64,000 bases of DNA from Jaenimonas drosophilae. Lineage: Eukaryota; Euglenozoa; Kinetoplastea; Trypanosomatida; Trypanosomatidae. The notes under the pieces were generated by a model. It was not told where the DNA came from and did not search any database. It saw only the letters and a program-made list of their open reading frames with translations. The stretch spans positions 35,752 to 99,751 of the forward strand of contig JASAON010001614.1 of the NCBI GenBank assembly GCA_030849065.1. The letters are read 5' to 3'. Shown here one piece after another: positions 3 through 22,159 of this stretch. The position numbers and the translations under genes were made by a program. Every line of letters begins with the position of its first letter. Positions within the stretch are counted from its first letter, which is position 1.

Positions 3-1661
3 CTGAATGCAGCTACAACAGGAGAGGATGTGGGTGATTTTGATGATGATCATCGCTCTCAAGTTGATGATGTTGTTGGTTCGGTGAAACTGCCTTCGCG
101 ACGTGGTCGCAGCAGTAGACGGCAAAGTATTGCGGCATCACGATCACCACTGGCCGCCAACAAATCGCAGAGCCACAACGCCATTCTTGGCTTCAGCACA
201 CGCAACCATCAAGGTGAGGAAGAGGTGCTGATGAATCTATCCTCCTCCGCCATGACTCTACCCAGCTCCATCACCTCACCACAGCAATTTCTCAGCCCAG
301 CGGGAGAGGTATACCTGCTTCCTCAGCAGCATCGCCAACTACAACAACAACAACAACAGCAACAGCAACAACAGCTTCCAGCATCCACGGGAACGTTTCC
401 GCAACCATTTCTTGCATCATCCATCATGGATGCTGCTGACGTGCTTAGCGGTGCCACCAACAACACCAGCGGGGTCATGTACACCTTGACGAGCATGAGT
501 AGCATCCACAGCAGAAGCAGTGAAGAGAGTGAAAGTACGAATAACAGCGTGAATTCCAGCGATGATGATGATGATGATGATGAGCACGATGACGAAGGAG
601 GACTAGAGCCACGTGCACGTCGTGGCAGCGTCGTGGCAACGTTGGAAGAAGGTGGTGGTATCATCTTATCGGATAGTTTTCTTCGATTGCACCCAACCTC
701 ACCTCTCGCAACACGTTGCCACGAATCTCAGAACGCCTCACTCCGCAACTCTCCACGCCTCCTCCATGGAAACACACAACAACAACGGTTGTTGAGCCCG
801 CATCTCATCCACACACGTGTTGGCCGATCGTGGCTGACCTCTCCCGTGGAGGCGCGCACATCAACATTGGATGATGTTGCTGGGGAACGCCCAGCCCATG
901 AAGGATTCATGGCAGAACCTACAACCCCACGTACACACTTTGTTCCGTATCCAAGCAATGCAACCACGCCAGCAGCAACACCGCTGCTGACCTCACCACT
1001 TGGATTAGCTGCTGCACACACGCCGATTGTGGGTGCGGCATCATCTGCCGCCTTCTCTCTCGGCCGCTCCACTTTATCTCGCCGAAGTTCCGGCCGCGGT
1101 GTGCCACACACACCCATGGACACCAACAACAGCAGCGTCACAACAACAAGTGCTGGTGTGGTGCCCATGCTGATGGATGCGGTGGTGTTGGAGGTGTTTG
1201 ATGAACGTGGCGGAGCAAATCGTCGAGGTGGCCGAGAGCGTTCAGCATCGAGGCCTGTTCCGCAACTCACCTCTCCACGTACGCCAAGTTCTGTGAGAGG
1301 AGGAGGAGGAGGAGGTATAGATGATGCCAAACACGCGGCGGCGTACATGATGGAGGTGGCGCAGCAACAGCGGCCCATGTTTCGTCGCAAGACCTCCGCT
1401 GAGGCATATGGCAGAGGCATGTACTTCCAGCTTTTGGATGAAGATGCACCAACAACCTTGATGCTTGATGCACATCAGAACATGGATGATGAAGAAGCAA
1501 CAGCAACAACACCAACGGTGAAGGCCACAACATCTCCGCACCCCGTACGTCGTGCAACCACGCCAACACATGATCATTGCCTTCTCTCGCCATCATTGCA
1601 CCTACGGGGTACGCGCCTTGAGAACTCCATCATGCATGGCTCTACATGGATGGATCAATAA
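3..1661 (+). CDS. Family 1 protein (GGC-FTD / YGRGxY motifs), 5' partial
   Basis: The frame is open to the left edge with no ATG before the conserved part, so the true start lies outside the window. The visible protein is mostly low complexity: a poly-Q run near nt 341-378, an acidic D/E run near nt 559-598, and Ser/Pro/Thr-rich linkers. Two blocks recur in four other genes here. The first, near nt 651-740, reads GGGIILSDSFLRLHPTSP. The second, near nt 1336-1434, has RPMFRRK followed by AYGRGMY. The first block has Gly where its relatives have Cys (GGC). There is no signal peptide or membrane span in the visible part. Function is unknown; the conserved blocks embedded in disordered sequence suggest short binding modules or one small split fold, which is inference. 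The stop is TAA. Confidence 0.75.
   Translation: MNAATTGEDVGDFDDDHRSQVDDVVGSVKLPSRRGRSSRRQSIAASRSPLAANKSQSHNAILGFSTRNHQGEEEVLMNLSSSAMTLPSSITSPQQFLSPAGEVYLLPQQHRQLQQQQQQQQQQQLPASTGTFPQPFLASSIMDAADVLSGATNNTSGVMYTLTSMSSIHSRSSEESESTNNSVNSSDDDDDDDEHDDEGGLEPRARRGSVVATLEEGGGIILSDSFLRLHPTSPLATRCHESQNASLRNSPRLLHGNTQQQRLLSPHLIHTRVGRSWLTSPVEARTSTLDDVAGERPAHEGFMAEPTTPRTHFVPYPSNATTPAATPLLTSPLGLAAAHTPIVGAASSAAFSLGRSTLSRRSSGRGVPHTPMDTNNSSVTTTSAGVVPMLMDAVVLEVFDERGGANRRGGRERSASRPVPQLTSPRTPSSVRGGGGGGIDDAKHAAAYMMEVAQQQRPMFRRKTSAEAYGRGMYFQLLDEDAPTTLMLDAHQNMDDEEATATTPTVKATTSPHPVRRATTPTHDHCLLSPSLHLRGTRLENSIMHGSTWMDQ
341..378 (+). repeat. CAA/CAG tract encoding poly-glutamine
   Basis: An in-frame run of CAA and CAG codons inside the first gene. 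The mixed codons argue against a recent pure trinucleotide expansion. Confidence 0.8.
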
Positions 1662-2921
1662 CCACCTCACCCATCATCATCATCATCATCATCATCACTT
1701 CACCACGCGTTGATGTGGCTGATGTTCATGTATCTCAGTGTTGTGTGCCCCCCCCCCCCCTTCGGTATTGCCTCCCCTCCTCCTCATTCCCATCTTGGGA
1801 GATGTTTTTTGTTTTTCCTCGATGGTTGCTGCTTCCGCCTTCTCCAACTGGGCGTGTGTATGTGTGTCTGTGGATTCATCGTCCATCCACGAACATCACG
1901 CTGCAGCTGCTGATGTTCGTGGGGATGCATAAATGAAGAGTGTGCCACCTCCATTTATATCCATGCGTGGTGTTGGGACCAACCAACATCATCATCATCA
2001 TCCTCATCATCATTTGCTGAATAGGTTCAGGAATGATTTGATGGGTGTGCTGCCACTCCTCCACACATACCGTTGACCGAGACCATTTATATTTTCTTTT
2101 GCTCATGGATGAAGATGATGAGCATCCAGTGTGTACGCGCGTGTGTGCTTGTTCGGTGCGTTGGATCCCCTGAGTGAGGTCTTTTCACCATCCACGCGAC
2201 ATCAACCATGTTGTGCCAACGATTCTGTTGGATGAATCATTGTCTTTTTTTTTTATTGTTTGCTTTTCTTTTTCATGATTGCGTGTCTTTTGGTTGCTGC
2301 AACAACACACGCACACACATGCACACACAAGTTGAACCAGACGTGTATGTTTGTGCGTATGTACGTAGTTTGTTTTTTTGTTTTGTTTTGGGTGCTGATG
2401 AGGACTTTCATAAATCTCCAACGCAGCTCCTTCACATCAGCGTATTGTCTGTGTGTTTTTTTCGTTTGTTCTTGTGCTTTGCTTGAGACATGCTCATGCT
2501 GAATTGTTGTTGATGTCTGGATGAGCAACAACCCTGGCAGGTTCATCTCCATCAAGCTGGGCGGCGTGTGTGTTCTGCGTGAATATTCACGTACTTGCGG
2601 CAACTACTCGGCATTGTTTCGGTGATGCCAACAGTGGAATAACGTAGATGATGTATCTCACGCAGGATGATAACATTGCCAACAATGTTTGTGTTATAAA
2701 TGTATGATAATTGTGCGTACAACTTGGTTGTTATGCTGCTCTATCCACGACTACATGCATCATCTCTTCTCCACGTTCTTCTTTCTTCGCAGACATTTTT
2801 TTTTCCTCACCCTTGTTGCTGTACATCAACGTACGCATCATTCAGCACATCATCATTCCAAGGAATTTTCAGCCATCCCACCTTCATCTACACTCTCCAC
2901 ATACATTTATGTGATTGTGCT
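1662..2921. other. Intergenic spacer, simple repeats
   Basis: No supported gene. It contains a CAT repeat (about 1672-1696), a run of 13 C (1748-1760), another CAT-rich patch near 1987-2012, CA-rich sequence near 2298-2328 and T tracts near 2245 and 2798. The pyrimidine-rich stretch before the CAG at about 2872 is the best candidate trans-splice acceptor for the next gene. Confidence 0.6.
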
Positions 2922-3758
2922 ATGCTAGAAGCCATGCTTAACTATCACTCGGCACAAGCACGGTCCAGTTCTCCATCCACCACACAAAATATAAACAACA
3001 ACAACAACATTAATCCGCGCAGAACGTATCCAGAGGCTCTTCCAGCATACTTGCCACGGCACTTGCGCGCCACCGTTGATGGTGTGGCGGTGATTTACAG
3101 CAGCTCCAGCGATTTACGCCATGTGCAACCGATGCTCGAGCTCATCACACCCACTCCACTACGACAGAGTGTGAGTGGTGAGGCCGATACGCACGTGGAT
3201 GAATCCACCACAGAAGAACACGCCGCACAGCAAGACGATGAGGTGGATCCATCACGTCGCAGTGCATCTTCTTCCCCCGTGCCTGAGTGCCTTCACACGA
3301 ACATCTCTCCAAAGGAGGCCATTCGTGCAGGCGGTTGTGTCATCTTCAGCGACCGATTTATGCACGATCATCCAACCTCACCCATCACCCTCATCTCACA
3401 TGAATATCAACGGGTACACCTACAACGTGCTCACACAGCCGCACCTGGCAGGATGCCATCCATATCTGCGTGTGAGACGAGCACTCCACTCGTGAGCCGT
3501 CGCGATGGTGGTGGTGATGCAGATGATGATGTGATGGAGCTGAACCAGTACATGATGGAGGCGATGCGTGCGGAGCGGCCACTCTTTCGGCGGCAGCCAT
3601 CCTACCAGTTATATGGCCGTGGATCATATGTGTTGTTGGATCAGGGAGATGTGGTGAATAGAGCAGCTCAACGTGGACGCTCGTGCTCCGCGGGGATGCA
3701 CGCCACCACGCTGGTTCATCGCGCAGCTTCTGCGATGGCCGTAAGCCACAACATGTAG
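2922..3758 (+). CDS. Family 1 protein (GGC-FTD / YGRGxY motifs)
   Basis: A predicted 278-residue protein of unknown function. ATG 2922 is the first in-frame ATG after the likely acceptor near 2872; ATG 2934 is an alternative if the AG at 2926-2927 is used. An N-terminal block, YPEALPAYLP...GVAVI...MLELI (nt 3027-3150), is closely matched by the gene at 17978. The central block is GGCVIFSDRFMHDHPTSP (nt 3331-3384). The C-terminal block has RPLFRRQ and LYGRGSY (nt 3571-3630). Linkers are Asn-, Ser- and Asp-rich. There is no signal peptide or membrane span. It is the shortest complete member of the family, so it shows the conserved core most clearly. The order N-block, GGC-block, YG-block is the same in all complete members. 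Confidence 0.8.
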   Translation: MLEAMLNYHSAQARSSSPSTTQNINNNNNINPRRTYPEALPAYLPRHLRATVDGVAVIYSSSSDLRHVQPMLELITPTPLRQSVSGEADTHVDESTTEEHAAQQDDEVDPSRRSASSSPVPECLHTNISPKEAIRAGGCVIFSDRFMHDHPTSPITLISHEYQRVHLQRAHTAAPGRMPSISACETSTPLVSRRDGGGDADDDVMELNQYMMEAMRAERPLFRRQPSYQLYGRGSYVLLDQGDVVNRAAQRGRSCSAGMHATTLVHRAASAMAVSHNM

Positions 3759-4951
3759 GAGGATGGTGCCTACTTCTTCATTCGTTGCGTGTGTGTGTGT
3801 AGCATGAAGAGCACCCAACACACTCATCATCATATATCTGTTGTGTTGCGCTCGTTAAATCTGCTATGCTACGACAAGCACACACTCTCTCTTTCATTTC
3901 TTCCTCTAATTCCTTTGTTCTGTGCCGCAACTTCTGCACTAGCAGCTCATGATGGCGATCATTCATCTTTTTTTCTTTTTTTTCTTTTTTTTTTGTGTGT
4001 GTGTGTGTACGTGTGCAGAGTACAAACAGACGTAATGGTCTGGGGTACATCTTAGTTTGTTTTATTTCTTCGCTTGTTGTTTGCTGGCAGCAACAACTAC
4101 TTTTTGCATACCTACTCTGACAAATACTCTTCTTGTGTTGTATGTCTTCTTCTTCCACCACGCAACTCATACACCCAATGAGTTTTTTCTTGAATCTTCG
4201 TGTTGGCATATGTTGCTGAACTCCGCACAGAGAGGTGTTGGCCGAAAACACATATGCCACTCACTCACTGTGTACGGAGCTGCTCTACATCCAACAACAC
4301 ATGCAACACAACATGATGTGAAAAGCACCACAAAACAACATTTTCACGCTTCAAGACGCACATTGCATTCAGTGTTCTTGCGCATAATCTATGTTGTTGT
4401 TTTGTGTGTATGTGTGCGGTTTACTACTACTACACGTATATCCGCATGAATGAATGAAGATGATCATTTATTTCATCTCCATTGCCGTAGCCTTGAATCA
4501 AGGTGGTGGGCGAGGAGCACATCATTCCTTCACGTTTGTGTGTAAATGTGTGTTGTTGCGGTTGTTTTGTTTTCCTTCTTCGTTGAACGCCCCTAACTTA
4601 ATCCAATGATGTGCGGTTATCTATGTTGCCCATGACATGGATGAAGCATACGCCAGCATGATGTATGTGCATCATACTCCCTCTTTTCTTCTTCAACACT
4701 TGTTTAGGTAGCACACTCTATCCCCTAAGTTGGTAGAGAGGCAGCAGAAGTAGCTCCTCGCACACTCGTTGTGCTCATTCAGTACCATACACGCATCACC
4801 TGCGTGCCGTGATTCTGAGTAGTCTTAGTTCCACTTCTTTGTAGTAGTAGTGTGTGTGTGTGTGTGTTGCTCGGTTTGTGCCTTGAACGCAACTGACACA
4901 CCACACTACAGTTGTACTTGTGGTTGTTGTTGTTTGTATTTTTTCACACTA
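3759..4951. other. Intergenic spacer with strong unassigned acceptor
   Basis: No convincing gene. A long T/C tract (about 3968-3994), a GT run and then CAG (4016-4018) form a textbook trans-splice acceptor, yet no clear gene follows for over 900 bases. A closer acceptor candidate for the next gene is the TAGTAGTAG near 4840-4850, followed by a GT repeat. Confidence 0.55.
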
Positions 4952-6190
4952 ATGTCAAGACAACAACGCAGAGATCCGTCGGCACGTAGAGTGCAGGATT
5001 TCGCCAACTTTCCCAACCAAGAAAACGTGGTGCTCCGCGGGGTCTACGGAGGCCCACAACTTCCACGTTTGCGTAGGTCTGATTTGCCCGATGCGGCGCT
5101 TGCACATGGTGATGTGTACCGATTGGAAACAACGGGTGTTGCCATCATGGACCGGAACTGGTCAGTGGAGGAGCATCAGCTCGAGGTGGTGGCACCGGAT
5201 GCGTGGCTCGATATCGTTGAGAACTTTAAGCCACGTTTTTCATCACCCACACGAAGTATTGTCTCAAGCATGTACTCCACAACACATCAAAGTCGTGGTG
5301 AGGTGGAGTACTCCACACGTTATGATTCCACGGGCACACACACCCACTCGTCTGTGTCTCAGCGCGCCCCACGTATGCGGCAGGTATCATCATACCAACG
5401 AACGCCACACCAAGGCAGTTCATCCATCCGACGATCCTTCAACGGCATGATTGGTGACTATGATGATGATGACGATGATTTTGATGATGATTATGAAGAG
5501 AGCAACGATGGTGAAGAAGATGATGAGCTTATCACGCTTATTTGCGATCGAGCCGCGAAGGATGTTAATGATGCCATCAGACGCGGTGGATGTTTCGTCT
5601 TCACGGATGGCTACCTCGCCAGCCACCCCGATGGCGACATCAGCCGAATAACAGAGCTCTACGAACGCTTCCACAATGATTGGTATGGAGATCAAGATGC
5701 CATCATCTCACTCATATCCAATCGTGAAGGTACACCACAACGCACAGAGATGTTGTTGCGTGAGGCGATGCAGCTCAAGCGGCCCATCTTCCGTATCAAG
5801 CGAGCAGAAAAGGTCTATGGTGCAGCCGCGTATAGCCCACTAATGCCTCCTACACAAGATGAGGTTATGGTGGCATCACCACAAGAAGTAGAAGAGCTGC
5901 CAGATCATGAAGTTGTGCCACAAGAAGACCAGGATCAGTTTGAGGAGCACGGCGATGTGCATCAACGACGTTTACGTGATCGCAACAAGAGGGCTGCTCA
6001 ACTCAAGGATTCACGTCTGTACGCGAGGAACTCCATCTTCCAGGCGTTGAACGATTTGGATCTCTCAAGCTCCAGCGTTGATCTCAGTGATGTAACGGTG
6101 GGTGTGGTGAGCTCCGTCAGCGCACTCGACCTGCACAGCCCTCATGACGTGAATGAGCCACCCGTGAGGGGCTTCTCATCCGCATCATAG
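4952..6190 (+). CDS. Family 1 protein (GGC-FTD / YGxxxY motifs)
   Basis: A predicted 412-residue protein of unknown function, starting at ATG 4952 (MSRQQRRDPS). The N-terminal block is divergent but alignable: DLPDAAL...TTGVAIMD...HQLEVV. A strongly acidic Asp/Glu run (nt 5458-5528) precedes the GGCFVFTDGYLASHP block (nt 5587-5631), which continues with ITELYERFH. The C-terminal block has RPIFRIK and VYGAAAY, so the RG of YGRG is replaced by AA. After this the protein carries an extra charged tail of about 120 residues (E/Q- and R-rich, then Ser-rich) that the shorter relatives lack. No membrane span is visible. It ends at TAG. Confidence 0.8.
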   Translation: MSRQQRRDPSARRVQDFANFPNQENVVLRGVYGGPQLPRLRRSDLPDAALAHGDVYRLETTGVAIMDRNWSVEEHQLEVVAPDAWLDIVENFKPRFSSPTRSIVSSMYSTTHQSRGEVEYSTRYDSTGTHTHSSVSQRAPRMRQVSSYQRTPHQGSSSIRRSFNGMIGDYDDDDDDFDDDYEESNDGEEDDELITLICDRAAKDVNDAIRRGGCFVFTDGYLASHPDGDISRITELYERFHNDWYGDQDAIISLISNREGTPQRTEMLLREAMQLKRPIFRIKRAEKVYGAAAYSPLMPPTQDEVMVASPQEVEELPDHEVVPQEDQDQFEEHGDVHQRRLRDRNKRAAQLKDSRLYARNSIFQALNDLDLSSSSVDLSDVTVGVVSSVSALDLHSPHDVNEPPVRGFSSAS

Positions 6191-6473
6191 CGAAGCAGGT
6201 AGGATGATGTTGTTGTTGTTGTTGTTGTTGAAGCTGCAGGATCATCTCATATATACACGTTTTACGTTTTACTCCAGTGATTGCTTTGGATGTTGTTGTT
6301 GTTGGGCAGGCCCACCTTCTATTGTTTTGTGCTTTACAACATGTCTCTGACGTTTTTCTATTGGCATGCGCAGTTCATGTAGAGCGCGGTGTGACGTTGG
6401 AGGTGTTGCGAGATGATGATGTGTGTGCGTGTGTGTGTATGTGTGTATTCATCTTCGCGTGTATGACGGATGG

Positions 6474-6504
<31 letters not shown>

Positions 6505-8226
6505 GCACAACTCATCTCTCTCCACCACCACCACCATTTCCTCCTCCTCCTTTTCATCATTACAATGACTTTAAGCGCCATCCATTCTGAGTGTTCTGTT
6601 TTGGTACTGTTGTTGTTGGTGATGGCACTCACGTCGTGCAGTGTTTTGGGGAGCAACATCACACAAGAACAAAAAACAATGACTACATCATCATCCTCAC
6701 CATCGAAGGCTATACCCAACCATACCCTTCACGAAACATGCAAAATCGTTGTTGTTGCTGGAGAATAGTGTGGCGCACGAGTAGGCGCACCAACCACGAT
6801 TTTCATGTTTCATCTTTCTTCGTTCCGTTGGTGATAGACCTTCCTATTTTTTTTGTTGTTGTTGTCGGTTGTTGGGGGAAAGAGGCAGCAAACCGTTCTC
6901 ATCAAGTGTATTCGAGTGATTTATTTTTCTTGGTTTTTTTTTTTGGTGATGCAGATGTGCACGAAAACAGTGGCTGATTGTTGTGGTAGTTCTCAGTGAA
7001 ATGCAGCGATTCACAGAAGCACGTACGCACACAGCCATAAAGATGTATGAATGGCATCATGAGCTTTCTGCGTCTGTACTCAGCCAACCACATTTTCATT
7101 TTCACCCTCGATGTTTTCTTGATGTGCCCTTCCTCGTTCTGGTTTCACGCCTGTTTCAGCTTTCGCTCTGCCCCTTCTTCGAATAGAAGGATGCGCTTAA
7201 CGTCATTCCCAGACTAACTTTTTTTTTTTTCAGCTTTCGTACTCCCCCTTCTCACTTTACAAGCAATGCGGCTGTGTGGTTGCTTCACGTGCGCGATGAT
7301 TCATCCTCCTCCTCCTCCTTCTCCCTTCTTACCCATCCTCACAATGAGGTGGAGGAGCATGTTTTGCCGTCACGGCATACGCACACAAGAGTGAATACCC
7401 AGATTTCTTCATTTTGTATATTTTTATTTTTTCCTGCTTCGTTTTTTTTTGTTTCTTTTGCTGTTGATGCAGCGTGACCAGAAAATATATTCGCCTCATT
7501 TCTATTGCTGCTGAAATGTATCGCTCCCACAACGGTGCGGCGTAGGTGAAGCACAAGCAGGTTCCCCCGAACAGCACAATTTGATGATGATGATATTTAT
7601 TCTGGTGCTGCGTGTTGTCCATGAGTGTGATGGTACACAACGTGATGTGCCCGCCAGTATGACTTGTGTGTTTGGTAAGACCTAGCCCTAGCACACTGCC
7701 CTTCATCATCATCTTCCTCATCATCATCATCCTCTCTTGTGCTCTTCATCTTCCTGTAGTTTCCTTGTAGAGCACCCCTCTCCCTCCCTGTGAGCTCCTT
7801 AACCCTCATTCATCTCTTTAGACCTCAGACAACAAGAGTTGCGTGAAGGATTGAGATACACACTTAACACATACACACACACACGCACACACAGTTTTTG
7901 TAGCTTTTGTTTCTTCGTTGGCTCGTGGTCTTCGCCTTGTAGCTCATCGGTGTTCCTCCCAACTGATTTATTTTTTTCTTTGCGGGGCTGTGCGAGACGT
8001 CGTCCAAGGTTTAAAACTGCAAATTTTTTTTTTTAAAAAAAGTTGTAAAGACAATCTGACGTACCTGGGCAACAGTGCACCGCCCTTCAGCTTGACTGCA
8101 CCTGCACGTCGTGTGTTGTGCAGATCAAGGATTGCTCGTCATCTACGCCACACGCTTGATTGTTGTGTATTGTTTTGCGCATCCTACGTGGAAATCTTTG
8201 TAATTCCACGCATCCTGAGGTGCGTG
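6191..8226. other. Long intergenic spacer
   Basis: About 2 kb with (GTT)n near 6209-6230, a CA repeat (6484-6503), T tracts and CAT/CTC repeats. It contains one possible small secreted-protein gene (6565-6768). A T tract at about 8022-8035, followed by A-rich sequence ending in AG near 8042, is a candidate acceptor for the next gene. Confidence 0.55.
6565..6768 (+). CDS. Possible small secreted protein, 67 aa
   Basis: A short candidate supported by layout and composition, not by homology. The CA repeat ends in CAG at about 6502-6504, a pyrimidine-rich leader follows, and ATG 6565 opens a 67-codon frame. The product has a signal-peptide-like hydrophobic stretch (VLVLLLLVMALTSCSVLG) near residues 12-29. 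After it come two N-glycosylation sequons (NIT, NHT) and a Ser/Thr-rich segment. It could equally be a chance frame in the spacer. Confidence 0.3.
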   Translation: MTLSAIHSECSVLVLLLLVMALTSCSVLGSNITQEQKTMTTSSSSPSKAIPNHTLHETCKIVVVAGE

Positions 8227-11200
8227 ATGCCCCAATCACCGGCAAAGATGCCGAGATCCGCGTCACCCGTGACACGGGATGCGAGCGAGGACCACATTTT
8301 TTTCGTAGATGAGCCCAGTGGTGAGCGCTTCAAGCTTCTCTTTCATGGTGACATCAACCGTTTGAGCGTATCCAAGATTCGGCGGTATTTGCGCCTGAAT
8401 CGCATCAACGATGAAAATGATTTGTGCTTTGAGGGGCGCGTGTTGTCGGATGATATGCGCGGTGGTGATTTTGGTTTGAAGCGTGGAGCTGTGCTCAAGC
8501 TACGCAGACCATCCCCGGCGTCTGAACCACACCAGCATCATCATCATCAGCAGCCACAGCAACACAACAACAAGAAGCAGCAACAGAACAAGAGCAAGAA
8601 GAAACATGATAGGGAGGCTCCAGCACACCACAACGGCCCCAGCTCCTACGAAGATCGTCTGCTGCTCAACAATGAATCCTACGCACTACGTTTTCACATT
8701 GAGCGCGTCAAGGATGTCAAGGAAGATGCACGCAACAACAACAACAAGGATGGTACATCTGGCATGAAGCTGCCCTATCTCAGTGGCAGCCACTCACCAT
8801 CTCCCATGGGACCTACGTCGTCAGAAACAAGCAGCGACGATACGCCAGCCAACAACAAACGCCAAAAGCTGCTGATTAACAAGGCTTCATCACCAGCCTT
8901 CTCTACCGTTCTCACAGATCCATCTGTTGTAGCTCCATATGGACGTGGTGAGCCCGACCACACACGTCCAGCGCCGATTGCACGTGGATGTGGAGCTCCA
9001 CCGCCAGGGGGAAATGTGAGCAGGAACAACATCAGCACCACATCACCCCCAGAGGAAATAGTGATGAGCCCAGGTTCTTCGCACTACATCCAGAAGCTGC
9101 AGGAGATGCTTCGCCAAGCAGAAGCACTCAGCTATACCAATGCCACCACCACCAACAACAACAACAACAAGATGTGCTCTACCACCAATCTTCAGCCACC
9201 TGCCGCACAGTACTCCTCACCGCAGTATGAGATGATGCCTCCACGAAGCATGGGCCTCGCTCCCGATTCACTTCGCTCGACGCCTGCGATTCAAGCAAGT
9301 GCGCCACCAGCCGCTGGCGCAACCCGACCAACATCGAACCACAACAACACCACCAACCAACAAGTGATGGAGGAGATGCGTGAGGTGCGTGCGGCGGTGG
9401 CGGATATGACGGGCATGCTCATGGAGATGAAGAAGCGCGAGGCGCGACAACCATCCCCAAGCTCCTCCACCACTGACAGCAGCATCAGCACACCAAACGA
9501 ATCGCATCGTAGAAAAGATGGTAGAAGTCACGTTCATCACAATCATGTGCCACCTCCACCACCTCCACCACCTCCGATGAAGACCCCTCGTCGTGGTGAG
9601 CGCACTCCGCGTAGTGATCGGCGCCATCCACCCATGGAGCCCGCTGAGGATCTCACACAACGTTTGCAGCAGGTTCTTCCACGAGCAGAAGTGGTGTTGC
9701 AACGTCTTCTCGGCGCACTGCGTGTGGCGGCATCAGAGCCCGCATCGGCACGTCGCTCGGAAGTCGCCTCCGTGGAACCGCACGCCGTGAAGGAGCTCAT
9801 CATCTCACCATCGCAATCCGTCTTCGTGGACGAGGCAACGGCGCCAACAGGGAGAGCGATGGGTGAGGAGCTACGCAGCATGCACGGCCTTCTCAAGGAG
9901 TTGGTGGCGATGGTGGAGCGTGGCGGTGGCGGTGGCAACGGCATGGTGAATGGCCGCCTTCCTTCGCATCGCTCACCCACACATCATTCTCCTTCCAAGA
10001 AGGACAATGTTGGTGCACGTGCTGCCACCCCACTCGCACAAGATCTTCAACGCGTGATGTCCTACACGGAACATGCCTTGGCGGATTTGGTTCAGGTTCT
10101 ACACTCTCAGCGTTCTCAACCTGATGTTGCAGCGCTAACCTCTCCACGCCACGACCGCCAACATGCATCGCCAGACTCCATCCATCTACACTCACCGAGG
10201 CATCCGTCTAGCCATCATCATCATCATGGTGATGATGTGGTGCCGGAAAACACGCACACGCATCGCTCGCACAGCGTGCGCCGGCCATCTCCTCTTCGTA
10301 GTGGATCTTCGCATCATCACCATCATCAATCCCAGCCACATCATGAGCAGCAACATGAAGCACATCCTCCTCCTTCCAGTAGCCGTCATGATGTGCCACA
10401 CACGAAGGAGGACGTTATTCTGAAGGAGGTCCACGACATACATCACGTGTTGCGTAGTTTGGTGAAGATGATTCATAAGGACAAGGATGAAAAAGAAGTG
10501 AAGCCCATTTCACCCACACGCGTTCAATCCCAGCGCTCACCAAGTCCTGAAAACATCTCCGCCTCACCCAACTCTTCCAGCCCGCGCTCCACCGACACCC
10601 GACGAACGCGCCCGCCACCGTCCATCTCGCCCAACGATATCCTCGGCCAAGAGGGCCGGCACCTCCGCGACACGGTACAGCGCGCGGAGCAGGTGATTCA
10701 TCGTCTTTTGCACCTCGCACAAGGCCAGCCCAACACATCTGCATCCCTCACCACCGACAGCAACAACAACAACAACTTAGAACGCAAGCACACCAAACGC
10801 TTTGATCAAGCACAACTTCCCTCTTCTGGTCCAGGTGTCGGGGAGGATTCCTTCGCCACGACGGGCTCCGAATCTGCGGTGATTCAGCAGCATGTGGTGG
10901 AGCACCTCGGCAGCGTGCAGCACATGGTGGAGCAGCTCTCTCAGGTGATGCGATCCCAGCGTAGCGTGCATGACCCATCGCCTGCCGCGGAGGGTGCCAT
11001 GCCAGCATCTCACCAGTTTGATGTTCTCCCGCTGCCACCAACCTCCATTGGTGGTGATGGGGATCTTGGCTCCGCGCAACTTGCCAACAACAACAACAAC
11101 CCTAAACCCACTTCACAACAACAACAACAACAGCAACAACGCTCACAGGATGGTGGTGTTCCGCCTGTTGTGGTTCAGAAACGTCTGAAGGACATCACTG

Positions 11201-11772
11201 CGGAAGTGGAGGAGGTCCTGAATGGGCTCACGCAACTTGTGCATGTGTTAGAGGAGCGTGGTATTTCACCCAACGCCAACACACAGAGTGGGAGCTTACA
11301 GCAGAATCGTCCAGTACCACTGGCGCGTGGAAGTGGGCGTGATCCGCTGCCATCGTCTTCAAACGTGGAGGAACAACCGCAACGCTTGGCGATGCGCGAA
11401 CACCTTTACACGGAGCTCCCGTCACAAGCCGTGGAGGTACCGCCAATGGCGGAGTTGTATCCAGGCCAATCTGCCACACTGCAGCTCTCCACGCGCTATG
11501 ATGAAGAGGCACAACCCTATCGCTATGCCCATCAACAACCCACAATGAGCTCCAGTCGCTCACCACGAAGCCAACCATCTCCACATTCATCTCGGCAGGT
11601 TTCTGGCCGAGGATCGCTGGCCTCACATCCCTTGAATAACAACAACAACAACTCCGCACGTGGTAGCTCTAAACAGCTGTACAATCATGCACTCTATATG
11701 CTGGGTGATGTAGAGAGTATTCTGGGTGATTTGCAGAGCATCATGGGCCCTGAAGCTCAGCAACGAATGTAG
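8227..11772 (+). CDS. Ubiquitin-like domain protein with ten alternating helical repeats
   Basis: A predicted 1181-residue protein. ATG 8227 is the first ATG close before the conserved domain; ATG 8248 is an alternative. Residues of about 20-95 form a ubiquitin-like fold: a short strand (FKLLFHG), a helix (LSVSKIRRYLRL), then CFEGRVLSDDM and a final VLKLRR strand. There is no C-terminal Gly-Gly, so it should not be conjugated. The rest is His/Gln/Asn/Ser/Pro-rich linker holding about ten amphipathic helices of 20-25 residues near nt 9080, 9370, 9650, 9870, 10040, 10420, 10660, 10890, 11180 and 11690. They alternate between two types, for example LQQVLPRAEVVLQRLLGAL and LRSMHGLLKELVAMV. The helices suggest an oligomeric scaffold. 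It is related to the next gene. Stop is TAG. Confidence 0.8.
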   Translation: MPQSPAKMPRSASPVTRDASEDHIFFVDEPSGERFKLLFHGDINRLSVSKIRRYLRLNRINDENDLCFEGRVLSDDMRGGDFGLKRGAVLKLRRPSPASEPHQHHHHQQPQQHNNKKQQQNKSKKKHDREAPAHHNGPSSYEDRLLLNNESYALRFHIERVKDVKEDARNNNNKDGTSGMKLPYLSGSHSPSPMGPTSSETSSDDTPANNKRQKLLINKASSPAFSTVLTDPSVVAPYGRGEPDHTRPAPIARGCGAPPPGGNVSRNNISTTSPPEEIVMSPGSSHYIQKLQEMLRQAEALSYTNATTTNNNNNKMCSTTNLQPPAAQYSSPQYEMMPPRSMGLAPDSLRSTPAIQASAPPAAGATRPTSNHNNTTNQQVMEEMREVRAAVADMTGMLMEMKKREARQPSPSSSTTDSSISTPNESHRRKDGRSHVHHNHVPPPPPPPPPMKTPRRGERTPRSDRRHPPMEPAEDLTQRLQQVLPRAEVVLQRLLGALRVAASEPASARRSEVASVEPHAVKELIISPSQSVFVDEATAPTGRAMGEELRSMHGLLKELVAMVERGGGGGNGMVNGRLPSHRSPTHHSPSKKDNVGARAATPLAQDLQRVMSYTEHALADLVQVLHSQRSQPDVAALTSPRHDRQHASPDSIHLHSPRHPSSHHHHHGDDVVPENTHTHRSHSVRRPSPLRSGSSHHHHHQSQPHHEQQHEAHPPPSSSRHDVPHTKEDVILKEVHDIHHVLRSLVKMIHKDKDEKEVKPISPTRVQSQRSPSPENISASPNSSSPRSTDTRRTRPPPSISPNDILGQEGRHLRDTVQRAEQVIHRLLHLAQGQPNTSASLTTDSNNNNNLERKHTKRFDQAQLPSSGPGVGEDSFATTGSESAVIQQHVVEHLGSVQHMVEQLSQVMRSQRSVHDPSPAAEGAMPASHQFDVLPLPPTSIGGDGDLGSAQLANNNNNPKPTSQQQQQQQQRSQDGGVPPVVVQKRLKDITAEVEEVLNGLTQLVHVLEERGISPNANTQSGSLQQNRPVPLARGSGRDPLPSSSNVEEQPQRLAMREHLYTELPSQAVEVPPMAELYPGQSATLQLSTRYDEEAQPYRYAHQQPTMSSSRSPRSQPSPHSSRQVSGRGSLASHPLNNNNNNSARGSSKQLYNHALYMLGDVESILGDLQSIMGPEAQQRM

Positions 11773-12499: not shown

Positions 12500-13288
12500 A
12501 TGCCCCCGGTACAGATCTTCTTCATTGATCGCCCGTACACCAAAACACGTTTTGAAGTTGTTGTGCAAGCCTACTTGCCAACACTCAGTGTATCCAAGAT
12601 ACGGCGCTACCTCCGCCTACGTCATGTGTCGGATGCGGAGCAGCTCACCTACAATGGGCAGCTTCTCATGGAAACGATGAAGGGGGAAGACTTTGATCTC
12701 AAGCAAGGATGTGTGCTTTATCTTGTTCCGCCCACTCCAGTATCCTCGCCACGACCAACAAGTGGTGAAACACGACCGAGTACATCTTCCTCACAGGAGG
12801 AGGATGCATCGCCACACAACCCACACGGTGAGGCGGCATCCATCTTGCAGGTATCTCCGCGAAGAGTGCCAGAAGTAGAGGAAGCTCCACAACCTCCGCC
12901 AAAAAAGAAGAAGAAGAAGAAAAAGAAGACACCTGAACTGAAGGAAGATGTAGTATCCGCACCATCACCACCACCGCCACCACCACCTCCTCCTCCACAA
13001 CAGCAACAGCAAGCACAACCACCTGCACATCTTTCTGTTCCTACGTTCATCTCCACTCGTACAGTTGCGGTGCAGCGAGATGCTCCCCCTCCCCCACCCA
13101 CAATTGAATACTACGAGTGCTCTATTTGCTCTGAAGATGATGATGAGGTGGATGCCGCACTCATTGATTTGCAACAACGTGTGCTTCACGTCCTCGAACG
13201 TATCGATATTGTGGAGGATCAGCTGAAGGACCTCAACTCAGATAACGAAGAGGAGGTTCATGAGCAACACCCACAACGTGAGCCATGA
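12500..13288 (+). CDS. Ubiquitin-like domain protein, short paralogue
   Basis: A predicted 262-residue protein with the start fixed by the acceptor just upstream. Residues of about 4-78 form a ubiquitin-like domain clearly paralogous to the one at 8227: LSVSKIRRYLRL is identical, and G-x-LL-x-x-M-x-G-x-DF-x-LK-x-G-x-VL-x-L is shared. It has no terminal Gly-Gly and no processing site. The middle is low complexity: Ser/Pro, a poly-Lys run near nt 12902-12928 that may act as a nuclear localisation signal, and a poly-Pro/Gln run. The C-terminus contains one helix (LQQRVLHVLERIDIVEDQL) resembling the helical repeats of its neighbours, then an acidic tail. The cluster of ubiquitin-like genes beside true ubiquitin may reflect local duplication. 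Function is unknown. Confidence 0.8.
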   Translation: MPPVQIFFIDRPYTKTRFEVVVQAYLPTLSVSKIRRYLRLRHVSDAEQLTYNGQLLMETMKGEDFDLKQGCVLYLVPPTPVSSPRPTSGETRPSTSSSQEEDASPHNPHGEAASILQVSPRRVPEVEEAPQPPPKKKKKKKKKTPELKEDVVSAPSPPPPPPPPPPQQQQQAQPPAHLSVPTFISTRTVAVQRDAPPPPPTIEYYECSICSEDDDEVDAALIDLQQRVLHVLERIDIVEDQLKDLNSDNEEEVHEQHPQREP

Positions 13289-13506: not shown

Positions 13507-13959
<453 letters not shown>

Positions 13960-14403: not shown

Positions 14404-16994
14404 ATGCAGCACAATGATTCTGGGGCCACACTCGTTTCGCAAATTGGTCAGCTCATGACAAGCTTCTCCTCCAACAATTCGGCACCAGACCCAACGGTGA
14501 TTGAGCGCTCGTTTCACTTGATGCTGCAACTGGAGCGGCTCTTCAGCCACATTCTTCAGAACATGATGGAAGCAGAGCTGGACCACCCCACTCTCTCCTC
14601 CCACGCACACCGCAAGGCTGATGCATCAGGGAGAGGCGCGGCCTCCCGTACACCAAATCCCCCAGCCACATCACACCGCACGCGCACCCACAGCCGCCAC
14701 ACCTCCTCCCGCAGCCACCCACCACACAGCAAACACACAACTTTGGCAACACAGCTTCAGGAGCTGAAGCACCTTCTTCAACAGCTCAAAGCGGCCATAC
14801 AAGAGCCCTCATCACGACGCCCACACCTACCCACCACAAAAAAGGCACCACCCATCACACTTCAGCACTACGAATCGGCAATGCAGCACATCCAGGAAAT
14901 GATTGGCCAGCTTCACGCCCTCTTCCATGAACGCCTTCTTCACTCCGTCAGCAAGAACTTCAGCATCAACACGGAGATGCAGGAGCTCATGGAAACAACA
15001 CCACCTCCACCATCGAACAACACAACATCCCTCCATCCGATGCCATCTGCCGTCCTACACCCACTCTCGCAGCAAGAACTCATGTCAGACCGCTTCACTC
15101 CACAGCCTGCAGCAACGCCTGACGCCCAACAATCTGTGCAACAGCTTCCTTCAGCCGTAATGCGGCCACCATCACAGACAGAGATGCTCTCTGGACGTAT
15201 GGCAGGCCAGGCTGCAGCAACGCCTGACACCCAACAATCTGTGCAACAGCTTCNGCCGTAATGCGGCCACCATCACAGACAGAGATGCTCTCTGGACCGA
15301 TGGCCGGGATGACGCCTGAGGATGCTGGTTGTGTGCCTGCATCGAAGCCTTCTGGCAGCCAACGTAAGAGGCAGCCTGTGTGTGTGCATGAGAGCGGAGG
15401 TCGTGGGAGGTATACTGAGGAAGAAGAACGTTTGCTCCGAGAGGCGGAGCGCTGCTTGTTGGTGGTGTATCCGCTGCTGCAGAGGTTGTGTTGTTGGGTG
15501 GAGCTGGATGAGTTCCGCTGCGTATTCGAGGCCATGGGGGAGCACATTGAATCAGCTACACAACAACGGCTGATGTCTGGAGATAAGGGCCTGTTGCGTC
15601 TGGAGCCAAAACAGAAGCACACCCATGAAGGTGGCGCGTATGAGGAGGTTGTGGGTTGGATGCCCGGGCATGAGGACCAACAGGGGTCTGCAGGATCCAT
15701 GGAAGTACAGGTGCCAGCTGCCCAGTCTTGCCCGAGCCATGTGATCTCGATGCCCTCCGAATCTGTGGTGAATCCGCTCATGAAGATTCAGCGTTGTCCT
15801 CCCTTGACGGATGTGGAGGAGGAGGAGGAAACACCAGGGCCTGAGAGAGACAGTACCTCTCCGAGCACCACATATGGCAGCCCACGAGAGCCCCGTGAAA
15901 GGTCGCAGACGCGGTCGCTGCTGCCATCTTCGGTGGTGGAGTCTATTGAATTGGATCACCTCCCCTCCATCATCATGCCATCACGGGCATCCATGGTGGT
16001 GCCAGAGCTGGAGCAGATGCTGAGCCGCCAACCTCTGACGGTGCCTTCACCCAACCACGATGGAGGCGGCTTGGTGGCCTTGTTACCTCCACAGGCGCAA
16101 CAAGAGGCGAGGTGCGTGGCACAGGGTGATGTGGCAGCAACCTATGAGGTGCCACTTCCAGGAGAGGAGGAGAGTAGCCCCTTAACCCAAGATGCCATGG
16201 AGTTGGTGCGCAAACGTCTGGATGAAACAGTCAGGACGATTGAAACAACTCTTCAGCCTCTCGGTGAGGCACTCGAGGAGCTGCGTCTGCGTGGTGTGGA
16301 GGTACCCTTCATTCCTCTTCTCACGGCCTCCAGCCCAGACTACAGCGAGGACGACCTGCAGCGGGAGTTGGCCAACACACAGGTTCCTGGCAGGGTGCGT
16401 AGCTCCTCCAGCGGATCTTCCGATAACCCAACCGCCTCGCTGCACAACGCCGTGGGAACCTTGCAGTCTGCATCATCACACATTTCTCAGGCGTGGGTGG
16501 CCTTGGAGGAGGTGGCACGGATGCTGCGTGCGCGTGGTGTTGATCCCTCATGCGCCGTGGACGTGTTGCGGCGCAGATCATCATCATCCATGGCGGCGGC
16601 GGCGGCGACGGTTGCTGCCCCACCACACATCCTGCCACAGCCCCTTATTCAGCGCACCACAACCCACGTGATGGATGCTGGATCCTACACCCATCTCCAG
16701 TCCACTGGCCACCTTGCCTCGCCGCCACGGATGCCACCTCAGCCTCCGCAGCAGCAGATAAGCCCAACGTGCCCCAACATACCAGACATTCCACGACGCG
16801 TTTCACTTCAATCGAACCAACCTAATGATTCTCCCATGGGTGGCACCGGCTCACATGCAACACAACACGGATTCTCTTTTGAGGGCAGCAGTGCGAAGAG
16901 ATCGCCAACATCGATGCAGCAGAGTGTCCTTCCCATCACGGGCTTCGAACTGCCCGACTACCGCCGCTCTGGAAGCACCGGTATGAGGGATTAG
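14404..16994 (+). CDS. Helical-repeat protein, frame broken by one ambiguous base
   Basis: ATG 14404 (MQHNDSGATL) follows a pyrimidine tract and AG. The frame closes just after the N at 15254, and a second long frame (15261-16994) continues at once with the same repeat. Comparison with the preceding repeat unit shows that N stands where five bases are expected. Replacing one by five (+4) puts both halves in one frame, giving about 864 residues. I therefore treat it as one gene with an assembly artefact. The product has helices resembling those at 8227 (LQELKHLLQQLKAAI, LLREAERCLLVVYPLL), including two with a shared RG-V-x-x-P end. Low-complexity Ser/Pro/His linkers separate them. There is no ubiquitin-like domain. 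Function is unknown. Confidence 0.7.
15043..15270 (+). repeat. 105-bp (35-codon) tandem repeat with an N
   Basis: Unit 1 spans 15043-15147 and unit 2 spans 15148-15252. Unit 3 starts at 15253, is interrupted by the N at 15254 and diverges after 'GPMAG'. Units encode the pattern PSAV...Q-x-E-x-x-S...ATPD-x-QQSVQQL. The single N probably marks a collapsed or unresolved repeat, so copy number is uncertain. Confidence 0.8.
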
Positions 16995-17977: not shown

Positions 17978-18982
17978 ATGATACCACCTGCACGTAGCAC
18001 GGTACAACGTGTTGTTCGCAATACACAACGCACCACCACTCCACGCACAAGCACCACCTCCCATCGACATCGCCGACGTGCAGAGTACCCTGAAGCACTC
18101 CCATCACTGCTGCCGGAATGCTACAAGGGTACGGCAAACGGCATTGCGGTGATTGGACCCGGAGAGGGCCCCACAGGCTCGTGGGAGGCCACCTTGGAGC
18201 TCGTGGACCCTCTGCGTGAGGAGGTTGAGCAAGACACCGCGGCGGTTTCATCCACGTTGTTATCTCCCAACATCAGCCAGTCCGCTGGATCTATCCCACG
18301 CTCCCCACCACCCACTCTGCGTTCAGCTGGCCGGTTGTCTGCCCCACGCCATGATGGCACCCCGGGACAACCAACAACCCTCTCCGTCACGAGCCCGGTC
18401 TCAAACCGCCGTGTGCGTAGCCCCGGGGAGGCACTACGTCAGGGTGGTTGCATCGTCTTCACAGACTCTTACATACACGCCAACCCACACACTCCGGTGG
18501 CGGCCATGGTGCAGAACTTCAATCTTTTGCGTGTTGGAAGCCCTCCACCCTCGCAGAGCTCCAGTCCTGCCGTTCGTACGGTGGATTCCTTCCCCACACC
18601 CATCTCCTCCCCACCAAATAACACCATCACCAGCACCAACAACACCAGCCAACCTGTGGTGGAGACCTCCGGCGATCTCATTGCACAGTACCTGAGTGAG
18701 GTGAAGGAACAACAACGGCCCGTCTTTGTACGTCGTGACTCACCCACCGTCTACGGCAGAGGCTACTACTACGCACCACCAAGCGGAACCCCACAATCGG
18801 CCAACACATCCCCGCGATCTCTCAGCAGCCCAGACGCAGTGCTTTCGGCGCGGCGAGGGGCACGTCGCCGTGGCTCCTCCCCGCCGCCTGTGCTGCATTC
18901 AAAGGCAGGATCGTACTCTGACTACCCATCACCACCCATAAATCATTCTGGCCCACGTCGAAACACACACGCTATCTACTAG
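17978..18982 (+). CDS. Family 1 protein (GGC-FTD / YGRGxY motifs)
   Basis: A predicted 334-residue protein starting at ATG 17978 (MIPPARSTVQ), with a basic, Arg/Thr-rich N-terminus. It has all three conserved blocks: YPEALPSLLP...NGIAVI...LELVDPL (nt 18087-18210), GGCIVFTDSYIHANPHTP (nt 18444-18497), and RPVFVRRDSPTVYGRGYY (nt 18717-18770). The N-terminal block is nearest to the gene at 2922 (shared YPEALP), although eleven kilobases and the ubiquitin-like genes lie between them. Linkers are Ser/Pro/Asn-rich, and the C-terminal tail is basic then Ser/Pro-rich. No membrane span or signal peptide is visible. Function is unknown. Confidence 0.8.
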   Translation: MIPPARSTVQRVVRNTQRTTTPRTSTTSHRHRRRAEYPEALPSLLPECYKGTANGIAVIGPGEGPTGSWEATLELVDPLREEVEQDTAAVSSTLLSPNISQSAGSIPRSPPPTLRSAGRLSAPRHDGTPGQPTTLSVTSPVSNRRVRSPGEALRQGGCIVFTDSYIHANPHTPVAAMVQNFNLLRVGSPPPSQSSSPAVRTVDSFPTPISSPPNNTITSTNNTSQPVVETSGDLIAQYLSEVKEQQRPVFVRRDSPTVYGRGYYYAPPSGTPQSANTSPRSLSSPDAVLSARRGARRRGSSPPPVLHSKAGSYSDYPSPPINHSGPRRNTHAIY

Positions 18983-20599
18983 TGCTCGTACATCCATCAT
19001 TCTCGGCTAGCGACGTGGTTTCGTGAACTAGGATCATGTGTTTTGTCGTTGAGCATCCAATGATTGCTGGGTGCGTTGAGAATCATTGATGCGCTGCATC
19101 TGTGCGACACGTTCTCACCTCATCTTCTGAGTGAACCGTTGTTTTTTTTCCTTTTCTGTTCTCCTATGTTTGATATGCTGTGTTGTTTTCGATAACATAA
19201 CATCTCCTGAGCGTTGCTTGCGTTTTTTTTTTCATGGGCTCCCAACCCATTGAGCAGACGACACGCCGTCCTTCTTCTCTCACTACACCGTTTTTTTCAG
19301 CACCAAACTTTGATCTCCTTCACCCACAGATCTTCCTTAGCCCTCGTTTCTCTTTCGTAAGCACGCTCATCTACTTTGTGTGTGGTTCCACCCCCGTTAT
19401 ACTGTAAAGGCATACATGCTGGTGTGTTCCACTGTTATCCCTCCCTCCCCTCTCTACACAAGGTAGCCACAAACAGTGGTGTGCTTGTGCGTGGGTGTGT
19501 GTGTGTGTAGGAAGTCCTAACTACTTGTCTTTTTTTTTCTGATTGTTGTTGTGCGGTGCCACGATAAGTTTATCCATGGTTCCTCGGTTACAACTCACGC
19601 GCATCTTTAAAACACAATTTTTCAAGCTTCGGTTTTTCCTGTTTTGATGATTTGCTGTGTGTTCCTTGTGAGTGATGGCGTCATGACGGATCAACACGTG
19701 TGGTCGTTTCTGGCCTCACGAACAGATCTGCCCAACTTCACTCTCTCTCTCCCTCAGATGGCGGTGTATGTTTTTATTCCCCCTGACTTGATGTTGGCTG
19801 TGATTGAGATAGGTAAGCTCCTTCAGATACCAACTTCAGTGTGGCTGCATCCACACACACACACACACGCGCACTCACAACATCGCAGTGCTGAATGGAG
19901 TGCAGGTAGGTACATGTAGTTTATCTGGCAAACTTCATTGATTGATTTTGTTGGGAGCTTCATGCCTGATAGAAGGACCGGCATTCTGACTCGTGCACGA
20001 TGTGTCTTAGAACTATCTACTATCTCAGAGAAGTTTGCCCACCTACCTCCGCCACCCAACAATGCTGTTATGAGATGATGATTTTTGCTCTTGTTCTTCC
20101 AGTGAAGTCACTCACTCACTCATGATCCACATATGCCATTATTCCCACCACAAAATGTGTTCTGTCTTGCTGCCACTCTGCACCCTGATGCACGTACCAC
20201 AGCTCCACCCCTTCTCTTCTCCCTATTGACATTCATATACACAACCAAGCTATGAATTAGAACCCTACTCACCACACGTACTTTGGCTTGTTTCTCTAAC
20301 TTCAGAATCCTCGTGAGCGCTGTCCGTCTTACTTCCGATTCGTTTTTGTTTGTGTTTATTCTTTTTGCTCATTTTCATCTTTTCATCATCACTCTTCTTT
20401 TTTTTTTTCACTCTTGGCGATTGCGTCTCGGTTGCGTTGCCAACATATCCACCACTCACTCCCCACCTTCTCAGGGAGTTTTTTTTTCTTCTTTTCACTC
20501 TTCGTTCATTTATTGTGGCGTTGAAGCTGTTGTGTGGGACGAGGCCCGCACGACTGATACATCCATCATACACAGCACCCCACCCAACCTGTAGAAAAC
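18983..20599. other. Long intergenic spacer
   Basis: About 1.6 kb with no supported gene. It contains T tracts near 19141, 19226 and 19531, GT-rich sequence near 19490-19509, a CA run near 19852-19867 and the acceptor of the next gene. Confidence 0.55.
20479..20526 (+). promoter_or_regulatory. Predicted trans-splice acceptor
   Basis: A long T/C tract (20479-20510) is followed by AG at 20525-20526, 73 nt before ATG 20600. Confidence 0.5.
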
Positions 20600-22159
20600 A
20601 TGGAGGCCATCCTATCTGATGAAGCCGCCGCCAACCCTGACGGCCTCCACCCAGAAGCACTCATCTCTGACCTCACACTTCTGCACCCCACGACCGTCAT
20701 GGGAACCGCCATCGTGGATAACGCCCATCGCAAGATTGCCAACCGTCTTCTTCGCCGTGGAATGTTGGAGCTCGTCAGCACCATGTCAAAGGCACCAATC
20801 TTCTCGGTGCTCCTTCTGCCTCCCGATGCCTGCCTTAGCCCTCAACACGCTCTACCTCTTCCAGCGCCACAAGATAAGCAGAACCTCCCGCGGCCCTTTT
20901 CGGAAGCCTGCCTTGCCACCCAGCCCACAGCCGCCTTCTTTCCCAGCACGATCTCTCCACGTGGAGCTGCCCGCCGCTTCTCCGTGAATGACGTTCATGG
21001 CGTTGGTTTCCCCACACGCGCTCCATCCATGTCCACCTTTCCATCGTCAGGAACTTCTCTCTGCGCCGCACCCACGGCATCAGCGGCACCTCGGCAGCCA
21101 GACCCACTCACCCCCGCCTCCACGACCACTGCACCACCGACTGGATTTGCACCCTTATCCTTGGATTTGCATCGCATCTCACGCGAGGATCTCTTCTTGC
21201 AATCACCCCAGATGCCGTTGCGCAGCCCTGCGCTCAGTGGCACCGATGGCTTCCCTCGCTTCAACACCGTGATGAGCATGGAAAATCTCGTCGATGATCG
21301 AGTGGAGGAGTCATTGGCTGCCCAACAAAGGGAAGGATTCATTGCCATGCAGCACCTGAATCACAATACCTCCACTGACCGTAGAGATGGAGGAGCCGCG
21401 GGCACAAGCCAACCAACCAGCACACCCCCTGCTACTGAACCTTTTCAAGGTAGCATGCTGAGCTTAACCCCGCAAATGCGCATGGGGATGTCATTTGAAA
21501 GTTTTGATCTTCTTCGTCAATCCGTCTCTGTGATGGATGCACGTGGGAGTACCTGCAGAGAGCGTCCCAGTGCGGCCATGAAGCAGGGTGGATGCATCAT
21601 CTTCACGGATGACTACTATGACTACAACAACCGATCTCCTGTTAGTCTCATTGCGGAGGAATATCGGCGCTATCATTCCGAACGTAAGATCGATCGGAGC
21701 TACCTGAACAACGTCAAGGCCAAATCGTACATCACGAAAGAGATAAAATCCTTATACGTGGAGGGTCAGATTGGTATACGACCCATCTTTCGTCGACGAC
21801 CGCCCGAGGATGTGTATGGTAGCTCGGAGTACATTCCAGCACAACACCCTACCTTGGTTGCCAATGACGCTCACGTGCTTTCAGACTCCACCGACCACAG
21901 GAGTCAAGATCCATCTCCTGCCAACAGCTCCGAAGAGCAAAGTGAGGAGGACGGCCTACGCCACCCACAATCTGACGTGAATCAATCTTCTAGTCGCCAG
22001 ACCCTATCTAGATCCACGAAGGATTCCGTCAGGAGTGCCTTGTATCGCGTCCGGCATGCTCGTTCAGAATCCGAAGATGGAAGCATCACGGATGATGCTC
22101 CAACCGATGCACCCCTGGTTGCCCTTTGCCACACACCAGAATCGCCTTTACTCCGGTGA
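20600..22159 (+). CDS. Family 1 protein (GGC-FTD / YGxxxY motifs), longest complete member
   Basis: A predicted 519-residue protein starting at ATG 20600 (MEAILSDEAA). The N-terminal block is recognisable but divergent: HPEALISDLTLLHP...MGTAIVD...MLELV. About 270 residues of Ser/Pro/Thr-rich sequence separate it from the central block, GGCIIFTDDYYDYNNRSP followed by LIAEEYRRYH (nt 21588-21677). Unlike the short members, about 25 well-ordered charged residues (DRSYLNNVKAKSYITKEIKS) lie between this and the C-terminal block, RPIFRRRPPEDVYGSSEY (nt 21778-21831), suggesting the two blocks form one continuous fold here. The tail is Ser/Glu-rich and acidic. No membrane span. Function is unknown. 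Confidence 0.8.
   Translation: MEAILSDEAAANPDGLHPEALISDLTLLHPTTVMGTAIVDNAHRKIANRLLRRGMLELVSTMSKAPIFSVLLLPPDACLSPQHALPLPAPQDKQNLPRPFSEACLATQPTAAFFPSTISPRGAARRFSVNDVHGVGFPTRAPSMSTFPSSGTSLCAAPTASAAPRQPDPLTPASTTTAPPTGFAPLSLDLHRISREDLFLQSPQMPLRSPALSGTDGFPRFNTVMSMENLVDDRVEESLAAQQREGFIAMQHLNHNTSTDRRDGGAAGTSQPTSTPPATEPFQGSMLSLTPQMRMGMSFESFDLLRQSVSVMDARGSTCRERPSAAMKQGGCIIFTDDYYDYNNRSPVSLIAEEYRRYHSERKIDRSYLNNVKAKSYITKEIKSLYVEGQIGIRPIFRRRPPEDVYGSSEYIPAQHPTLVANDAHVLSDSTDHRSQDPSPANSSEEQSEEDGLRHPQSDVNQSSSRQTLSRSTKDSVRSALYRVRHARSESEDGSITDDAPTDAPLVALCHTPESPLLR

Follow-up and report, generated by a model that had tools for sequence, protein, structure and literature searches.

Lineage-specific tandem gene arrays are known in trypanosomatids, and many of them encode surface proteins. 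At the scale of short motifs, cofactors of p97/VCP carry the SHP box, for which we used the consensus F-x-G-x-G-x2-hydrophobic and, for membership, the form F/W-(x)-G-x-G-x2-L; the SHP1 site of Leishmania p47 is given as FYGRGQRL in PMC7403338. Here, we analysed a 64,000-nucleotide stretch of the Jaenimonas drosophilae assembly GCA_030849065.1 (hereafter the window), which spans bases 35,752-99,751 of the 99,751-base contig JASAON010001614.1 (C323). Five tandem genes in this window belong to a real, constrained and apparently unclassified kinetoplastid family that extends beyond the window and is older than it suggests, with 18 members found so far, numbered m on C323 and n on two further contigs, and all carrying three conserved blocks (A, B and C).

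Three ordered blocks under constraint

An initial, sequence-only reading of the window had proposed five genes sharing conserved blocks in a fixed order. This was borne out, and the first gene (m7), which enters the window with its 3' part, has its block A just 5' of the window. The full m7 gene spans C323:35121-37412, starting 631 bases 5' of the window, and has a counterpart at C121:3727-6081. The start of m8 was placed at 2922 because its counterpart on C121 opens with identical residues (MLEAML); a further in-frame ATG lies at 2700. The members and their blocks in the window are as follows:

3-1661, + strand, m7, 3' part of the gene (residues 212-763 of 763)
633-722, + strand, m7 block B (EGGGIILSDSF)
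1323-1427, + strand, m7 block C (RPMFRRKTSAEAYGRGMY)
2922-3758, + strand, m8, 278 residues
3033-3158, + strand, m8 block A (EALP..GVAVI..LELI)
3312-3401, + strand, m8 block B (AGGCVIFSDRF)
3528-3632, + strand, m8 block C (RPLFRRQPSYQLYGRGSY)
4952-6190, + strand, m9, 412 residues
5087-5212, + strand, m9 block A
5567-5656, + strand, m9 block B (RGGCFVFTDGY)
5732-5836, + strand, m9 block C (RPIFRIKRAEKVYGAAAY)
17978-18982, + strand, m10, 334 residues
18092-18217, + strand, m10 block A
18425-18514, + strand, m10 block B (QGGCIVFTDSY)
18668-18772, + strand, m10 block C (RPVFVRRDSPTVYGRGYY)
20600-22159, + strand, m11, 519 residues, last member found on C323
20654-20779, + strand, m11 block A
21569-21658, + strand, m11 block B (QGGCIIFTDDY)
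21731-21835, + strand, m11 block C (RPIFRRRPPEDVYGSSEY)

Across the 18 members, block A reads V-x-G-[TVI]-A-[VIL]-[VILM] followed by LE[LMV], block B is a predicted helix followed by G-G-x-[IVF]-[IV]-[FL]-[TS]-D, and block C consists of R-P-x-[FLY]-R-R, a loop and Y-G-x-x-x-Y, mostly YGRGxY. All three are present in identical order in every member, with 83-295 residues from motif start to motif start between A and B and 64-240 between B and C. Apart from the start methionine, the alignment has invariant columns in block A (P, G, A and E), block B (G, G and D) and block C (R, P, Y, G and Y), which do not appear to form an obvious catalytic set. The patterns first written for the blocks proved too narrow: GGC[IV][IV]F[TS]D-x-[YF] fits three of the five window genes strictly (those at 2922, 17978 and 20600), whereas the gene at 4952 reads GGCFVFTD and the first gene GGGIILSD, and RP-x-F-x-R..YGxxxY fits four of the five, the gene at 4952 reading RPIFRI. 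In the whole family, strict pattern B fits 5 of 18 members and strict pattern C 14 of 18. Conservation of the cysteine in block B was not upheld: behind GG, only 9 members have cysteine, whereas six have glycine, two tyrosine and one phenylalanine. In block C, YGRG-x-Y is found in 14 of 18; its second glycine is replaced in m9, m11, n8 and n9, and its second tyrosine is invariant. Internal duplication of blocks A and B was looked for and found no support.

Relaxed patterns written after the members had been seen, GG.[IVF][IV][FL][TS]D.[FY] for block B and RP.[FLY].{8}YG...Y for block C, each fit all 18 members and match just those 18 among 1488 six-frame open reading frames (ORFs) of at least 60 amino acids on C323, C118, C121 and C229. 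In shuffled ORFs (20 shuffles per ORF), they matched 0 and 0 of 29,760. The blocks were also compared with shuffled sequence in a fairer test, by means of profiles from which the tested gene and its counterpart had been left out, using 1000 shuffles per protein and block limits set by patterns written after inspection of all members. For blocks B and C, the true protein scored above every shuffle in all 18 members. For block A it did so in 17 of 18; in m7, 11 of 1000 shuffles were as good.

The blocks are under stronger constraint than the linkers. In seven counterpart pairs, identity reaches 54-81% in block A, 61-93% in block B and 70-88% in block C, compared with 38-53% over the remaining aligned sequence. 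Pooled ratios of nonsynonymous to synonymous divergence (dN/dS, Nei-Gojobori) rank in agreement with these identities, at 0.20, 0.08 and 0.10 for A, B and C and 0.28 outside the blocks, and are rough, as dS is 1.2-1.8, above 1 in all classes and near saturation. The protein outside the blocks is itself under some constraint. Selection on the blocks, as the sequence-only reading had suggested, is supported by the identities, the dN/dS values and the shuffle test.

Composition also differs, with I/L/V/F/Y/W/M making up 32% of residues in the blocks versus 20% outside and serine 6.8% versus 13.2%. Judged from this composition, the Ser/Pro/Arg-rich inserts would be disordered. Hydropathy revealed no transmembrane stretch in any of the 18 members (highest 19-residue mean, 1.55). 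The members are also very poor in lysine relative to arginine, with K/(K+R) of 0-0.30 and no lysine at all in the 262 residues of m2. Lysine avoidance was dismissed as a family trait because it is unspecific: the values are below those of most neighbours, yet other local genes go down to 0.09.

The array, its second copy and a probable anchored relative

Searches covered the 18.8-megabase assembly (370 contigs), in which all member counts are lower bounds. C323 carries 11 members, m1-m11, between positions 16,888 and 57,910, the five in the window being m7 to m11. Seven more, n1-n3 on C118 and n6-n9 on C121, follow the same order as m1-m3 and m6-m9 and bring the total to 18. In a tree of the blocks, each n member is sister to the m member of the same number in 7 of 7 pairs (bootstrap 92-100). 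That n4, n5, n10 and n11 were not found says little because, if order is kept, they would fall in the gaps between C118, C121 and C229. The interval between m9 and m10 holds two ubiquitin-like genes and two further open frames (14404-16994). Searches of the assembly with m8, m3, m7 and the B-C part of m2 gave no supportable member outside C323, C118 and C121. One weak match on C131 (E-value 0.04) was rejected as a 233-residue frame that, by eye, lacks blocks A and B; other weak matches lie on C242 (E 0.008) and C231 (E 0.07), in frames with two and three stops, respectively, and on C363 (E 0.9).

The second copy extends beyond the family: counterparts on C118, C121 or C229 were counted for 19 C323 genes, with local protein identities of 39-66% in 16 and 69-92% in three. 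On each contig the counterparts follow the same order, save for one extra gene on C118 and for the two aldo-keto reductases, whose best matches are crossed. This second locus copy reflects either two species in the assembly or two old subgenomes. The assembly is probably incomplete, since the Rpb2 domain has a single match in it where about three such genes are expected of a eukaryote.

After the 18 members, the next-best matches of the block C profile were a counterpart pair, named m0, at C323:13692-15755 and C118:12108-10267 (E 0.013 and 0.018). On C323, m0 adjoins m1 upstream of the array; on C118, one gene (9724-8597) lies between m0 and n1. In both m0 proteins, an N-terminal transmembrane helix, with hydropathy values of 2.39 and 2.50, is followed by basic residues, an arrangement that by the positive-inside rule would place the blocks in the cytosol. 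Next come, corresponding to A, B and C in turn, YPEAQP..V[AP]GNVILRD, [ST]KGGYLVYER and SSFDVYGRGAYL. When the three blocks are scored together in this order with the profile of the 18 members only, the two proteins reach 16.6 and 15.2 and take places 19 and 20 among 89 ORFs of at least 200 residues, between the weakest member (100.8) and the next ORF (9.2), and each of the two proteins exceeds 1000 of 1000 shuffles. Most of this score comes from block C (12.4 of 16.6 and 11.9 of 15.2).

These resemblances make the m0 pair probable distant members of the family. Membership is probable rather than certain because block B is at background and because, on C118, one gene stands before n1. Block A scores weakly (4.0 and 4.1) and block B is at 0.3 and -0.9. 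Of the separate hidden Markov models, the one for block A recognises only YPEAxP (0.2 and -0.3 bits), and the one for block B makes no placement on KGGYLVYER. By eye, the pair keeps the segments predicted as strands and lacks the helices that array members have before block C and after the GG strand. The array may thus descend from a membrane-anchored protein.

Two further window genes, 51821-53137 and 53612-54895, each encode a transmembrane helix and YGRADY or YGHGDY. Their membership found no support: with the m0 pair added to the profile, 15 and 101 of 1000 shuffles, respectively, were as good, as were 41 of 1000 for the counterpart of the second. The protein of 53612-54895 and its C229 counterpart share about 75% identity, above the identity of the array members; a C229 counterpart of 51821-53137 was not found.

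One split domain or separate motifs

The family resembled nothing familiar at first sight, and this impression was supported within what was searchable, namely Pfam, NCBIfam, PDB sequences and PDB folds. In Pfam, the 18 full-length members searched to E 0.1 matched one family in one member (E 0.082), and all matches of the window members to E 1 fell under the curated cut-offs. Joined B and C blocks of the 18, searched to E 10 in Pfam and NCBIfam, matched five families in each, one member apiece, with best E-values of 0.034 and 0.045. PDB sequences yielded only chance-level matches, the best chain for the B+C profile being a designed TIM barrel (E 0.009). In a protein collection, neither m8 alone (1143 candidates, none at E of 1 or below) nor the 18-member alignment (7993 scored) found a relative; this negative cannot be taken to mean that the family is an orphan, because the one control gene examined (window 30689-34384, 53% identical to its counterpart) also has hardly any relatives there, with a single protein covering 9%. 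Literature searches, judged by titles and abstract openings, brought up no paper pointing to this family. Kinetoplastid databases may list members as hypothetical proteins.

We favour, at a probability of about 0.45, the reading that the blocks form a single small intracellular binding domain, composed mainly of beta strands and interrupted by two disordered inserts. In this proposal, segments A, B and C would come together into one domain despite the inserts, and the domain would most likely act as a protein-binding (scaffold or adaptor) module. Its conserved surface would hold one partner, and the fast-evolving Ser/Pro/Arg-rich inserts would vary additional binding or regulation. Tandem duplication would have given rise to the set, perhaps starting with a membrane-anchored founder that persists upstream. 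A small fold interrupted by disordered inserts had already been suggested from the sequence; what speaks for it now is the retention of all blocks together in 18 of 18 members and the recurrence of the same strands in two AlphaFold runs on m8, at residues 55-58 (A), 139-142 (B) and about 222-226 and 234-238 (C). The stronger constraint on the blocks, their richness in hydrophobic residues, the strand-predicted segments that the m0 pair keeps by eye, and the lack of a transmembrane stretch and of an obvious catalytic set also favour it. Block B is the best-predicted part, with 10-residue means of 54-70 in the first run and 64-78 in the second. The models themselves weigh against this reading: their confidence is low (mean predicted local distance difference test scores of 46.8 and 52.7, predicted template modelling scores of 0.25 and 0.31), their inputs of 5 and 7 rows overlap for the most part, and no solved fold matches in a PDB fold search (39 matches, one of them titled winged helix, at E 8.8). 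So do the roughness of the dN/dS values, the constraint outside the blocks, and the m0 pair with its weak block A, background-level block B and missing helices. A fuller version, possible if doubtful, is that of a new domain in which one fold is made from three segments, the disordered stretches between them reaching about 300 and 240 residues, giving adaptors with a shared docking face and differing loops, in 11 tandem genes and, in rudimentary form, in the anchored founder.

The same low confidence speaks for the main alternative, in which the blocks would be three independent linear motifs in disordered proteins, each folding on its own partner, with the protein as a flexible tether; block C, for example, could add a beta hairpin to a partner's sheet. 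The long and variable spacing of the blocks is consistent with this, as is the m0 pair, whose score comes almost entirely from the short S-x-x-x-YGRG-x-Y. Against three free motifs, the main argument is the joint retention of the blocks, as none of the 18 members has lost or reordered one, even though inner branches of the tree measure as much as 2.4 changes per column. Moreover, blocks of 30-40 residues are long for such motifs. We hold this alternative to be rather doubtful.

An improbable alternative is that B and C form a nucleic-acid-binding winged helix with an insert inside its helix-turn-helix. In both low-confidence models the predicted order is helix-strand-helix-helix, insert, helix-strand-strand, and both the better prediction of block B and the wing-like RPLFRR..YGRGxY would suit such a fold. 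One of the 18 joined B+C sequences even matches an ArsR/SmtB-type regulator (E 0.15), which belongs to a winged-helix family. This match is at chance level, however, as are the five Pfam families noted above, none of which is a winged helix by name; the top PDB chain of the B+C profile is the designed TIM barrel, the single fold match so titled is the one at E 8.8, and the m0 pair keeps, by eye, the strand-like parts and not the helices. Finally, it is highly improbable that block C is a VCP/p97-binding SHP box tying the family to ubiquitin-dependent protein handling: YGRG-x-Y followed by a hydrophobic residue resembles the p47 motif given in PMC7403338, and two ubiquitin-like genes lie inside the array (8227-11772 and 12500-13288), but the family has tyrosine where the box has phenylalanine or tryptophan, and the reading fails because the second glycine is lost in 4 of 18 members and the second tyrosine, which lies outside the box, is invariant.

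Should the blocks indeed form one fold, as we favour, the family would show clearly that a domain can tolerate two very long disordered inserts, present in all of its members. Its natural array of variants, the diverged second copy and the likely anchored relative would make the tolerance and use of such inserts directly testable, and would offer a handle on a gene set that has no Pfam family match.

Neighbouring genes and known systems

Most long ORFs of the window lie on the + strand, including two non-member genes inside the array:

8227-11772, + strand, ubiquitin-like N-terminal domain and long low-complexity tail
12500-13288, + strand, second gene with the same ubiquitin-like domain

Ubiquitin-like domains were also seen at L029 (C121), positions 2806-3105 and 7138-7377. 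A profile of the four domains (two in the window, two on C121) matches PDB ubiquitin weakly: the best single-domain chain, a designed variant, has an E-value of 0.011 and DSK2 one of 0.03, and multi-ubiquitin chains reach 1e-15 by summed repeats. PF00240 matches two of the four (best E 0.006).

Further along the window, the solved structures that best match an aldo-keto reductase (36450-37319) are chains named prostaglandin F2-alpha synthase and prostaglandin F synthase, which are Leishmania and Trypanosoma proteins. The 397-residue product of 40197-41390 carries a PARP regulatory domain (PF02877, E 4e-9), has no other Pfam match at E 0.001, and has two matches on C229, at 21 and 23 kilobases. 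A 101-base tandem duplication (15103-15304, copies 91% alike) lies across the junction of the overlapping frames 14404-15261 and 15261-16994, just before which an undetermined base gives an X in translation; the duplication is possibly an assembly problem.

Set beside known systems, blocks B and C have the same order of predicted helices and strands as winged-helix domains, in models of low confidence; they give no sequence or fold match above chance, and the helices are absent from the m0 pair by eye. What 14 of 18 members have in common with the SHP box of p97/VCP cofactors, as described for Leishmania p47 in PMC7403338, is a G-x-G preceded by an aromatic residue. By eye, the ubiquitin-like domains of the neighbouring genes have none of blocks A-C. 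The array also departs from trypanosomatid surface-protein arrays, as by hydropathy its 18 members have no transmembrane stretch and only the upstream m0 has one. With trypanosomatid tandem arrays in general it has in common that it consists of uncharacterised tandem paralogues, which diverge by low-complexity inserts.

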